A DNA stretch of 64,000 bases, taken from assembly GCF_037975245.1 (NCBI RefSeq), contig NC_092573.1, forward strand, positions 25,201,265 through 25,265,264. The letters are read 5' to 3'. The DNA comes from Apostichopus japonicus (lineage: Eukaryota > Echinodermata > Holothuroidea > Aspidochirotida > Stichopodidae). Below the pieces are notes generated by a model. That model saw nothing but the letters and a program-made list of their open reading frames with translations. It did no database searches and was not told the origin of the DNA. The translations under genes and the position numbers were made by a program. Of this stretch, positions 31,983 to 56,414 are shown piece after piece; within the stretch, counting starts at the first letter, position 1; every line of letters begins with the position of its first letter.

Positions 31983-32317
31983 TCACTGCCCATCATCAAC
32001 TAACTTCTCATGATCATCTACAGCATCATTTGAAAGTATGCCCTCTAACATCGAGTCCTGCTCTTTCTTTAAATCTAGTTTGCCACCGTCCTCCGAGTTG
32101 GCATTGGGAGGTTTCACTTTATAAATAGGTGTGAACGATGTACCCATGGAACTTTTTCGGACACCAAAGGGGTCATATTTGGCTTTCCCTGGGCTGTTTC
32201 TCTTCCTCCTCCATACCAGGCAAACGACCACACCGATGATCAACAGGACAGGAAAGAAAGGCAAAATATATTTGAGGCTGCCCCCGATGTGTTTCTCCAC
32301 TCCAAATATGACTGAGT
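31983..32317 (-). CDS. receptor exon 31: transmembrane helix and cytoplasmic tail
   Basis: The acceptor CCCCAG at 32318 opens a terminal exon: 17 juxtamembrane residues, a 19-residue hydrophobic helix, RRKR, and a 75-residue tail ending [11 protein letters not shown] before TGA. The tail contains YDPF (YxxPhi sorting motif) and a second Tyr in TPIYKVK. I see no kinase, TIR, death or ITAM motif. The tail is Lys/Asp/Ser-rich and probably unstructured. Confidence 0.93.
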
Positions 32318-56300: not shown

Positions 56301-56414
56301 ACAATTAGGCTAGCCCTGGTACGGGTGGAAGATAATGAAATGTCTAAACTCACCGGCCAGCATTGCACAGAGCAGTAAAATAGCTACCGTCTTTATCGAT
56401 GGCGCGTCATCCAT
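31983..56414 (-). CDS. giant SRCR / cysteine-rich / Ig transmembrane receptor
   Basis: Thirty-one coding exons (56414-56354, 54456-54409, then 29 exons from 52572 to 31983), all GT-AG and all phase-consistent, encode about 1979 aa. Order: signal peptide (1-21); six SRCR domains at about 128-228, 349-450, 660-768, 885-985, 1103-1210 and 1332-1440; furin/growth-factor-receptor-type cysteine-rich blocks before and between them; an EGF-like linker; four Ig domains (about 1505-1868); transmembrane helix 1886-1904 ([19 protein letters not shown]); basic stop-transfer RRKR; 75-residue tail. SRCR and Ig domains bind ligands at the cell surface, so a recognition, adhesion or scavenger receptor is inferred. 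The tail has a YxxPhi-type endocytosis motif (YDPF, 1916-1919) and no kinase or ITAM. I know no named family with this order. Chains of such domains are typical of echinoderm innate-recognition genes, but the ligand is unknown. Confidence 0.9.
32395..32925. repeat. 90-bp minisatellite in the last receptor intron
   Basis: Six units of about 90 bp containing TTAGTGATTGATATGTAACT and CGTGAATATCTCTCCCACCA. Because the length is a multiple of three, two minus-strand frames stay open through it and one even runs into the last exon. These repeated 30-residue translations are not protein. Confidence 0.95.
33050..35147 (-). CDS. receptor exons 26-30: four Ig domains
   Basis: Exons 35147-34851, 34576-34304, 34116-33972, 33700-33576 and 33316-33050. 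Ig pairs: NLACVG...GQYTCTL, TLKCLP...[13 protein letters not shown]...GKFSCVA and DFECDV...GQYTCIA, each with the core Trp ([28 protein letters not shown]). They look like I-set/C2-type domains as in adhesion molecules. Domain 3 is split by an extra intron, while the other three are single exons with phase-1 borders. Confidence 0.93.
35252..35664. repeat. 36-bp minisatellite in the intron between the EGF-like and first Ig exons
   Basis: About 11 nearly identical units containing CTATTGGGTGTTCTAGTGAT, then TACATCAAACACATCT. The length is a multiple of three, so both strands remain open with 12-residue periodicity. Confidence 0.95.
35753..35944 (-). CDS. receptor exon 25: EGF-like linker
   Basis: Encodes about 64 residues with eight or so cysteines ([39 protein letters not shown]) between SRCR 6 and the Ig region. 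The pattern is closer to EGF/GF-receptor units than to SRCR. Confidence 0.85.
36387..37342 (-). CDS. receptor exons 22-24: cysteine-rich block 6 and SRCR domain 6
   Basis: Exons 37342-37086, 36921-36731 and 36588-36387. Furin-like units ([36 protein letters not shown]) are followed by [20 protein letters not shown] and [14 protein letters not shown]. The core motif CDDxW is replaced by CGTNW, so this SRCR domain has lost both acidic residues. The distal half ([20 protein letters not shown]) is also divergent, with [17 protein letters not shown] at the end. Confidence 0.9.
37629..37936 (-). CDS. receptor exon 21: SRCR domain 5 in one exon
   Basis: Apart from its first strand, the whole domain lies in one 308-nt exon: [17 protein letters not shown], then [19 protein letters not shown] and [15 protein letters not shown]. 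All expected cysteines and the CDDxW core are present. This is the exon most like the relic at 11722-11812. Confidence 0.95.
38317..39244 (-). CDS. receptor exons 19-20: cysteine-rich block 5
   Basis: Exons 39244-39004 and 38491-38317. Units: [18 protein letters not shown], then [16 protein letters not shown] across the splice to [14 protein letters not shown]. The second exon ends with the opening strand of SRCR 5 ([15 protein letters not shown]) in phase 0. Confidence 0.9.
39403..40589 (-). CDS. receptor exons 17-18: SRCR domain 4
   Basis: Exons 40589-40373 and 39527-39403. [20 protein letters not shown], then [20 protein letters not shown] and [12 protein letters not shown]. As in domain 1 there is no intron after the first strand; here the intron falls at AH|FGEG (phase 2). 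A SINE ends within about ten bases of the donor of the first exon. Confidence 0.92.
39974..40366 (+). mobile_element. tRNA-derived SINE, copy 2
   Basis: Box A TGGTCAGGAGG at 39984 and box B GGTTCGAGCCC at 40028. The body matches the copy at 1262-1622 until GGGTTAAGT, then a unique 3' part (GCGGCGAGACTTTATTGTAA, TGTGCTATATAAG) ends in an ATT-rich tail. It is antisense to the receptor gene, in the intron after exon 17. The tail stops about six bases short of the donor GTAAGC at 40372-40367. Confidence 0.88.
40743..41036 (-). CDS. receptor exon 16: cysteine-rich block 4
   Basis: A single 294-nt exon encodes three furin-like units: [40 protein letters not shown] and [18 protein letters not shown]. 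The donor is GTGATT, weaker than its neighbours. Confidence 0.9.
41266..42223 (-). CDS. receptor exons 13-15: SRCR domain 3
   Basis: Exons 42223-42083, 41760-41673 and 41451-41266. After a linker, [15 protein letters not shown] joins [17 protein letters not shown]. The usual CDDxW core has become CHDHW, removing an acidic residue that often coordinates calcium in group A SRCR domains. The second half is MIWLDNVLC to [13 protein letters not shown]. Confidence 0.9.
41591..41656. mobile_element. 66-bp retroposed insertion with a hammerhead-like fold
   Basis: Flanked by a 13-bp direct repeat GACAATGAATACT (41578-41590 and 41657-41669) and ending in an A run on the plus strand. On the minus strand it folds as TTAGCCT/AGGCTAA (closing stem), CTGAAGA, stem GATCC/GGATC, GAAAC, GTC: the order and spacing of a minimal hammerhead, with CTGAAGA in place of CTGATGA. 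The duplicated target contains the 5' splice site region of receptor exon 14. Confidence 0.7.
42629..45041 (-). CDS. receptor exons 10-12: long cysteine-rich block 3
   Basis: Exons 45041-44899, 43799-43647 and 42808-42629, with phase 0 between them. Units include [38 protein letters not shown] and [20 protein letters not shown]. At about 160 residues it is the longest of the blocks. The donor of the last exon is the unusual GTTTGT. Confidence 0.88.
43045..43315. mobile_element. small MITE-like foldback in a receptor intron
   Basis: About 40 bp at 43056-43094 (ATTACGTAATCGACTTGCC, then TTGGTCGTAAAACGACCTC) are inverted, with a few mismatches, at 43267-43305 (GAGGTCGTTAAACGACCA, then TGGCAGGTCCATTATGTAAT). 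No coding capacity. Target duplication not identified. Confidence 0.65.
46198..46515. repeat. about 30-bp minisatellite in a receptor intron
   Basis: Around ten units of GACC(C/A)TA(T/C)AGTATGTACCTAGTTATAGAAAT. A longer period of four units is visible because the ATATGTACC and TAATAATGACC variants recur in the same order. Confidence 0.9.
47493..47537 (-). CDS. receptor exon 9: 45-nt Ser/Thr linker exon
   Basis: Encodes [15 protein letters not shown] between SRCR 2 and the next cysteine-rich block. The acceptor (TTGCAG), donor (GTAAGT) and phases (1-1) are good. Being a multiple of three, it could be skipped without a frameshift. The Ser/Thr content suggests an O-glycosylated hinge. Confidence 0.7.
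47980..48606 (-). CDS. receptor exons 7-8: SRCR domain 2
   Basis: Exons 48606-48471 and 48117-47980. [17 protein letters not shown] and [20 protein letters not shown] are followed by [18 protein letters not shown] and [14 protein letters not shown]: a complete scavenger domain with the CDDxW core intact. Confidence 0.92.
50184..50593 (-). CDS. receptor exon 6: cysteine-rich block 2 and start of SRCR 2
   Basis: A 410-nt exon encodes the end of SRCR 1 (GIRCSG), then two furin-like units ([18 protein letters not shown] and [20 protein letters not shown]) and the opening strand of SRCR 2 ([14 protein letters not shown]), ending in phase 0. There is no stop in the second minus-strand frame for 125 codons, but that frame lacks the domain pattern. 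Confidence 0.92.
51139..51724 (-). CDS. receptor exons 4-5: SRCR domain 1
   Basis: Exons 51724-51540 and 51303-51139. The domain begins [20 protein letters not shown], then [11 protein letters not shown], and ends [15 protein letters not shown]. The intron falls after CKELQLG (phase 1), unlike domains 2, 3 and 5, where the first intron follows RVE/RLE. The loop between [11 protein letters not shown] and [11 protein letters not shown] is in the usual position of the GxGPIWLDxVxC motif but lacks its glycines. Confidence 0.9.
52356..52572 (-). CDS. receptor exon 3: first cysteine-rich block
   Basis: Encodes about 72 residues with a furin/GF-receptor-like Cys pattern: C-x3-C-x3-[25 protein letters not shown]. 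The pattern CxxCxxxCxxC followed by CxxC and then a short aromatic/Leu tail recurs in every cysteine-rich block of this protein. Confidence 0.88.
52573..56353. other. first introns of the receptor gene
   Basis: Nearly 3.8 kb separate the signal-peptide exon from the first cysteine-rich exon, broken only by the 48-nt exon at 54456-54409. A cluster of ATATCT/AGATAT motifs lies at 55395-55475. I see no other coding exon, RNA gene or large repeat. Confidence 0.55.
54409..54456 (-). CDS. receptor exon 2: small linker exon, possibly optional
   Basis: A 48-nt exon with acceptor ACCACAG and donor CAAG|GTAAAA encodes [15 protein letters not shown] between the signal peptide and the first cysteine-rich block. 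Its length is a multiple of three and its phase (1-1) fits both neighbours, so the protein reads through with or without it. Support is splice signals and phase only. Confidence 0.6.
56354..56414 (-). CDS. receptor exon 1: signal peptide
   Basis: [22 protein letters not shown] short N-terminal segment leads into a hydrophobic core and a small-residue cleavage region, and the donor is GTGAGT. The ATG is the first in this exon and starts the only frame that joins the next exons in phase. Confidence 0.85.

Follow-up and report, generated by a model that had tools for sequence, protein, structure and literature searches.

Mosaic SRCR receptors are common in invertebrates. CD163 (SR-I) spans the membrane once and carries tandem SRCR domains that are directly joined and belong to the eight-cysteine group B, DMBT1 carries CUB and ZP domains together with its SRCRs, Robo, Dscam and contactin have I-set immunoglobulin (Ig) domains followed by FN3, and receptor tyrosine kinases with a furin-like region have an intracellular kinase domain. 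According to a survey of sea-cucumber SRCR genes, six cysteines mark group A and eight mark group B; it reports 37 loci with very varied additional domains and places most if not all SRCR domains of Holothuria glaberrima in group A, and its main text, as distinct from its Table S3, contains neither the word furin nor immunoglobulin (PMC13228809). The association of SRCR with Ig is already known: cnidarian proteins are described that combine SRCR, multiple Ig domains and trypsin (PMC5119243, in whose text the word furin does not occur), ctenophores are said to have scavenger-receptor proteins with Ig (PMC11797021), and many SRCR domain combinations are reported for amphioxus and itemised in a supplement (PMC2575513). 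Here we describe a gene on the minus strand of a 64,000-nucleotide stretch of the sea cucumber Apostichopus japonicus (contig NC_092573.1, positions 25,201,265 to 25,265,264; the whole stretch is called the window, and positions refer to it). Its predicted product, some 1950-1980 residues long, is a single-pass membrane receptor of type I, in which a signal peptide is followed by six pairs of furin-like block and SRCR domain, a weak EGF-like segment, four Ig domains of the I-set type, a transmembrane segment and a tail of 75 residues. The modules are familiar, and their arrangement is apparently undescribed.

How does this arrangement compare with the described systems? CD163 is likewise single-pass with tandem SRCR domains and gives the SRCR5-6 piece its best sequence match in PDB, whereas the present protein has six cysteines per SRCR, furin-like blocks between the SRCRs and four Ig domains beside the membrane. 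DMBT1/SALSA and the DMBT1-like proteins of sea cucumbers likewise have several six-cysteine SRCR domains (PMC13228809), and the cation triad of SALSA recurs in four of the six domains here; the DMBT1 family was nevertheless set aside, because neither CUB nor ZP is among the Pfam matches at E 0.001; the present protein also differs by its furin-like, Ig and transmembrane parts. At the same threshold there is no trypsin match, which speaks against the neurotrypsin family, defined by its serine protease (PMC13228809). R-spondins, described as secreted proteins with two furin-like repeats and TSR1 (PMC4926470), were rejected for want of a TSP1 match and for the transmembrane segment found here. 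Ig-type adhesion receptors (Robo, Dscam, contactin) were rejected as a family because Pfam matches four I-set domains and no FN3, and receptor tyrosine kinases with a furin-like region because the 75-residue tail has no Pfam match and no kinase. R-spondin and ErbB have the furin-like repeat fold in common with it; here the repeats alternate with SRCR. The cnidarian proteins share multiple SRCR and Ig domains and, as described, end in trypsin (PMC5119243). The Chlamydomonas mastigoneme protein MST1, an algal rod of growth-factor-receptor cysteine-rich and Ig-like parts, offers an analogy only, no SRCR being named in its description (PMC11015965). Among the papers listed by full-text searches aimed at the combination, which do not extend to subscription papers, we found no description of SRCR and furin-like repeats in one protein, nor of the full order furin-like/SRCR/Ig; three listed papers in which both terms occur (PMC9296861, PMC3347323 and PMC7464614) deal, by their titles, with proteases and coronaviruses. 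The view of the original prediction that no named family has this order is thus in keeping with the literature and with Pfam and PDB, which match separate modules only, although orthologues may quite possibly sit unnamed in databases.

A splice-aware dynamic programme recovered the gene as a single minus-strand unit, in one continuous frame from an ATG at 56414 to a stop at 31983, as had been predicted. A first run gave 29 exons and 1911 residues between the same ends, with exon 14 short and exon 15 late; relaxing the acceptor threshold placed exon 14 at 41036-40743 and exon 15 at 40589-40373, and the resulting core model has 29 exons, 1948 residues and its sole stop at the end. The 31 exons and 1979 residues originally predicted are matched exactly, and without internal stop, once 54456-54409 (48 nt; acceptor 2.9, donor 2.5) and 47537-47493 (45 nt; acceptor 2.5, donor 8.7) are added. 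Both came from looser runs, lie in the between-domain introns 1 and 7, are phase-neutral and contain no recognised domain, and we treat them as putative optional exons; the proposed function of the receptor does not hang on them. Over seven programme settings the chains had 29, 30, 35, 43, 46, 47 or 57 exons and all ended at 31983; the start fell at 56414 in the 29-exon run only, at 56363, an internal methionine of the signal-peptide exon, in five, and at 58408 in one. The chains of 35 exons and more, obtained with looser exon penalties, were not adopted, since most of their extra exons are short, weakly spliced and devoid of domain content. The 30-exon chain scores slightly higher under one setting and was passed over in favour of the ATG at 56414, since it starts at the internal methionine.

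Under one setting a 30-exon chain scored 696, against 29.9 for the opposite strand of the interval, 4.5, 6.6, 33.6 and 78.3 for four other stretches of the window (5-31 kb), and a maximum of 26.8 in 20 first-order Markov shuffles. Part of this excess arises by construction, because the codon log-odds were trained on clear minus-strand pieces of cysteine-rich, SRCR and Ig type, all taken from this gene itself; the splice-site frequencies of the programme are approximate values. Splice-rank tests, which use the same site scores as the model and are less circular than the programme score, placed the model's donor top within 40 bases at all 28 introns and its acceptor at 26. When the best local sites were joined without regard to phase, the frame was kept at 25 of 27 testable junctions (one could not be tested), where a third is expected by chance. 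The claim that the architecture is no artefact of joined open reading frames is upheld by these comparisons. Exon 1 (donor 7.2, hydropathy 3.2) is the sole candidate within 57500-52600 that combines an ATG, a hydrophobic stretch and a phase-1 donor at the thresholds used, and an AATAAA lies at 31932, 51 bases past the stop, where the minus strand has about 1.4 such hexamers per kb. Judged on sequence evidence, then, the gene and its domain order are real. Its parts, in window positions, are as follows.

56354..56414 (-), exon 1: signal peptide, residues 1-20; donor 7.2
54409..54456 (-), putative optional exon: 16 residues without domain; open in frame
52356..52572 (-), exon 2: furin-like block 1 (1 unit); gene model, Pfam
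51540..51724 (-), exon 3: end of block 1, first part of SRCR1; gene model
51139..51303 (-), exon 4: second part of SRCR1; gene model
50184..50593 (-), exon 5: last cysteine of SRCR1, furin-like block 2 (2 units), start of SRCR2; structure model matches R-spondin Fu1-Fu2
48471..48606 (-), exon 6: middle of SRCR2; gene model
47980..48117 (-), exon 7: end of SRCR2; gene model
47493..47537 (-), putative optional exon: 15 residues, Ser/Thr-rich, without domain; open in frame
44899..45041 (-), exon 8: furin-like block 3, unit 1; gene model
43647..43799 (-), exon 9: furin-like block 3, unit 2; gene model
42629..42808 (-), exon 10: furin-like block 3, unit 3; gene model
42083..42223 (-), exon 11: end of block 3, start of SRCR3; gene model
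41673..41760 (-), exon 12: middle of SRCR3; gene model
41266..41451 (-), exon 13: end of SRCR3, degenerate cation triad; gene model, alignment
40743..41036 (-), exon 14: furin-like block 4 (2 units); gene model
40373..40589 (-), exon 15: end of block 4, first part of SRCR4; weak acceptor, score -0.9
39403..39527 (-), exon 16: second part of SRCR4; gene model
39004..39244 (-), exon 17: last cysteine of SRCR4, first part of furin-like block 5; gene model
38317..38491 (-), exon 18: end of block 5, start of SRCR5; gene model
37629..37936 (-), exon 19: remainder of SRCR5, start of block 6; gene model, Pfam
37086..37342 (-), exon 20: furin-like block 6 (2 units); gene model, Pfam
36731..36921 (-), exon 21: end of block 6, first part of SRCR6; gene model
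36387..36588 (-), exon 22: second part of SRCR6, cation triad lost; gene model, alignment
35753..35944 (-), exon 23: last cysteine of SRCR6 and EGF-like linker; EGF_3 below cut-off
34851..35147 (-), exon 24: Ig domain 1 (I-set); gene model, Pfam
34304..34576 (-), exon 25: Ig domain 2 (I-set); gene model, Pfam
33972..34116 (-), exon 26: first part of Ig domain 3; gene model, Pfam
33576..33700 (-), exon 27: second part of Ig domain 3; gene model, Pfam
33050..33316 (-), exon 28: Ig domain 4 (I-set); gene model, Pfam
31983..32317 (-), exon 29: juxtamembrane part, transmembrane segment (residues about 1852-1873), 75-residue tail, stop; 19-residue hydropathy 2.8

Pfam, run on the translation as the original prediction had suggested, returned SRCR in six stretches (4 + 2; profile PF00530, E 8.2e-105 for the four and 1e-48 for the two), Furin-like_2 in four (3 + 1) and I-set in four, all over cut-off. 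The six cysteine-rich plus SRCR repeats and the four Ig domains that had been predicted are hence recovered, the cysteine-rich parts being furin-like by both Pfam and cysteine pattern: twelve units with the pattern C-x2-C-x2-4-C-x2-C form six blocks of 1, 2, 3, 2, 2 and 2. Matches of the furin-like blocks to Giardia VSP (43.3 and 36.2 bits, over cut-off) were read as a shared CxxC repeat pattern. All six SRCR domains have six cysteines and so belong to group A, and six SRCR domains with one transmembrane segment can be set against the class definition given in PMC7663992. Of the predicted EGF-like linker a cysteine-rich segment stands, while its EGF label is weak (EGF_3, E 0.0087-0.029, below cut-off; no sensible match in PDB). 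Hydropathy gives one signal peptide and one transmembrane segment, followed by a tail of exactly 75 residues, as foreseen; the tail contains no known domain (Pfam, E 0.001), and all ten N-glycosylation sequons precede the membrane. The nearest PDB matches of the four Ig domains are Robo2 and Dscam, followed by titin, neurofascin, DCC and contactins, and the Ig and transmembrane part has no match in NCBIfam, a prokaryote-directed library.

For the furin-like blocks, an AlphaFold model of block 2 was built from an eight-row alignment of the exon-5 block (119 residues) with seven other furin-like exons of the gene (mean predicted local distance difference test score 83.3, predicted template-modelling score 0.65). 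A Foldseek search of PDB with this model ranked R-spondin Fu1-Fu2 first (from E 3.8e-05, template-modelling score about 0.5, about 30% identity) and the cysteine-rich ectodomain regions of ErbB next (from E 4.9e-03 and weaker). The predicted fold supports the furin-like label, at template-modelling scores that are modest. The internal SRCR copies are probably old, because they are 30-52% identical among themselves and mostly 44-56% identical to SRCR matches elsewhere in the genome (one such match is 35% identical and broken by stops, one 67% over 34 residues). Intron positions recur among them: SRCR2, 3 and 5 share a phase-0 intron after GRVE/GRLE, SRCR1, 4 and 6 a phase-1 intron directly before the last cysteine, and SRCR1 and SRCR3 a phase-1 intron at domain residue 44. 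This recurrence would fit an ancient internal duplication with later intron change.

Is the gene one of many in the genome? The exon for transmembrane segment and tail found itself and one chance-level match (E 2.07). Searches with three furin-like blocks as queries yielded 13, 11 and 5 matches at E 0.01; besides this gene they hit C13 at about 1.0 Mb, C6 at about 3.8 Mb and C23 at about 18.0 Mb. A genome search for the Furin-like_2 family, whose sensitivity is limited in that it missed this very gene, gave 3 matches and 20 candidates, with places on C9 at about 12.7 Mb and on C13, again at about 1.0 Mb. With 111 of 343 candidates scored, the Ig-array query returned 103 matches, of which five lie in this gene and the rest are at most 43% identical. 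No conclusion is drawn from the absence of this gene in the SRCR list of the genome, because that list, for which 150 of 712 candidates were scored, gives a minimum and is biased towards domains lying in a single frame; among the matches listed, SRCR places include C6 at 1.95-2.05 and 7.24 Mb and C9 beyond 21.8 Mb, with none on C23. In exon-by-exon searches, furin-like units adjoining SRCR were seen only at this gene among the matches listed, where of the other furin-like places the C13 locus (20 kb) alone was inspected and those on C6, C9 and C23 were compared by position. That locus, C13:995001-1015000 on the same chromosome as the gene, likewise has many furin-like units and differs in that its 20 kb contain no convincing SRCR signature, one WRRVC string lying in a stop-filled frame. 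Membership of the gene in the recent echinoderm SRCR expansion is not supported, its tail having no second convincing match and the furin-like plus SRCR pairing being seen only here. We tentatively consider, with rather more doubt than confidence, that the gene might stand for an unnamed single-copy family with SRCR heads, furin-like rods and an Ig stalk, which would lie outside the echinoderm SRCR expansions, be conserved at least across sea cucumbers and serve as a germline-fixed multivalent sensor or adhesion receptor. Dense SRCR clusters whose domains are each open in one frame occur on C2, C3, C5, C6, C9, C12 and C21 (for example C9:21.85-22.14 Mb and C12:26.07-26.19 Mb).

What might such a receptor recognise? 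In SRCR8 of human SALSA/DMBT1, D1019, D1020 and E1086 are reported to coordinate the site-2 cation, and hydroxyapatite, heparin and a streptococcal protein were no longer bound once either aspartate had been replaced by alanine (D1019A or D1020A; PMC7043408). If the CDD and HED motifs are taken to mark the equivalent residues, SRCR1, 2, 4 and 5 of the present protein have D-D-E, SRCR3 has H-D-K and SRCR6 has G-T-V; all six domains keep the site-3 aspartate (D1058 in SALSA). Because four of the six SRCRs keep the Asp-Asp-Glu triad, a multivalent Ca2+-dependent recognition or adhesion receptor is suggested, most likely of the scavenger-receptor type, a reading to which we would assign a probability of roughly 0.55. 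The cell-surface recognition or adhesion receptor of the original prediction fits the signal peptide, the ectodomain modules, the transmembrane segment and the short tail, and remains a putative function. We imagine an arrangement whereby the furin-like blocks would act as disulphide-bonded spacers that keep the SRCR heads apart, SRCR1, 2, 4 and 5 would bind repetitive anionic ligands (microbial surfaces, sulphated glycans, matrix) via Ca2+ and with avidity, and SRCR3 and SRCR6, whose triads are lost, would be structural or have partners of their own. The Ig stalk might raise the array off the membrane or make lateral or homophilic contacts, and the short tail might couple bound cargo to uptake or to the cytoskeleton; it contains YDPF, which we take to fit the endocytic YxxPhi pattern, a weak motif. 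That a single chain keeps the triad in four domains and has lost it in two yields specific predictions on which domains bind, and the composite, with its furin-like spacers, its Ig stalk and no close paralogue, offers one defined receptor for the study of ligand, cell type and conservation.

Several points weigh against this proposal. Conservation of the triad would indicate binding potential only, and no close paralogue turned up within the searches made, unlike many immune SRCR genes; this lack would also suit a developmental or adhesion role. In the gene model itself, looser settings alter exon number and start and split exon 24 and others by short weak exons, the best local acceptors at introns 2 and 17 differ from those of the model, and a weak alternative signal-peptide start lies in intron 7, a phase-1 intron of 2.9 kb between domains. 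The main rival is a developmental or neural adhesion or guidance receptor, in which the Ig repeats would bind and the SRCR/furin array would be a spacer or matrix anchor without microbe recognition. The closeness of the Ig domains to Robo2 and Dscam, with contactins among the next matches, the single copy of the tail and the intron-rich SRCR part speak for it; however, I-set arrays usually match neural adhesion proteins anyway, Pfam found no FN3, which most Robo/Dscam-like Ig adhesion receptors carry, and four SRCR domains keep the ligand-binding triad, so that we consider such a role unlikely, if clearly worth keeping in view. A signalling modulator that acts in the manner of R-spondin or of a growth-factor receptor and binds its ligand through the furin-like blocks appears very improbable: among Pfam models Furin-like_2 fits the blocks best, and their best fold match is R-spondin Fu1-Fu2, yet at template-modelling scores of only about 0.5 and about 30% identity, Pfam found neither TSP1 nor a kinase domain, and the string FSHNF, by which R-spondins engage LGRs, is not in the translation.

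Alternatively, the interval might hold two genes or products, for instance exons 1-7 apart from exons 8-29, or an Ig/transmembrane gene next to a secreted form that ends after exon 23. Introns 7 and 23 do fall between domains, intron 7 is long and contains the only alternative signal-peptide start in the 28 introns (45290-45227, minus strand; donor 3.7, hydropathy 2.4) and two poly(A)-like hexamers, which is fewer than the strand average, and there is one ATTAAA in intron 23. Exon 1, however, is the better start of the two, and intron 23, which joins the SRCR part to the Ig part, is short (605 bp), consists for 401 bp of a 36-bp minisatellite in 11 copies and lacks any signal-peptide candidate at the thresholds applied. 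In every run the top-scoring chain extends across the whole interval with no start or stop inside it, in a programme that seeks only one gene per run. By hand-set domain limits, 12 of the 28 introns interrupt SRCR or Ig domains, 8 interrupt furin-like blocks and the other 8 (1, 7, 13, 23, 24, 25, 27 and 28) fall between domains, the last all in phase 1, the pattern expected of shuffled modules, which likewise argues against two genes; if introns 8, 9 and 10, which lie between furin-like units and are in phase 0, are counted as between-domain, the phase-1 rule no longer holds throughout. Because 20 of the 28 introns interrupt SRCR or Ig domains or furin-like blocks and the single alternative start is weak, a single gene is supported at the level of the gene model, and a division into two seems improbable.

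The stretch 45227-45290 (minus strand) is phase-compatible with exon 8 and could be an alternative first exon. Minisatellites lie in three introns: 32377-32918 (90-bp, six copies) in intron 28, 35251-35651 (36-bp, 11 copies) in intron 23 and 46195-46515 (31-bp, 10 copies) in intron 7. Those of introns 28 and 23 have periods divisible by three and lie inside minus-strand open frames (290 and 154 residues) outside the model.

Elsewhere in the window, two closely similar copies of a reverse transcriptase with GIY-YIG lie in opposite orientation at 20368-23097 (minus strand) and 24061-26118 (plus strand), with a partial copy at 23367-24197; these are presumably a Penelope-like element. At 16417-16797 (plus strand), an open frame ends in DUF1674 (E 1.7e-22), which we take to be an SDHAF4-type mitochondrial assembly factor. 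At 9096-10470 (minus strand), a repeat of the SHTHCLLFPILTVCC type is open for up to 414 residues and is probably a satellite rather than a gene.

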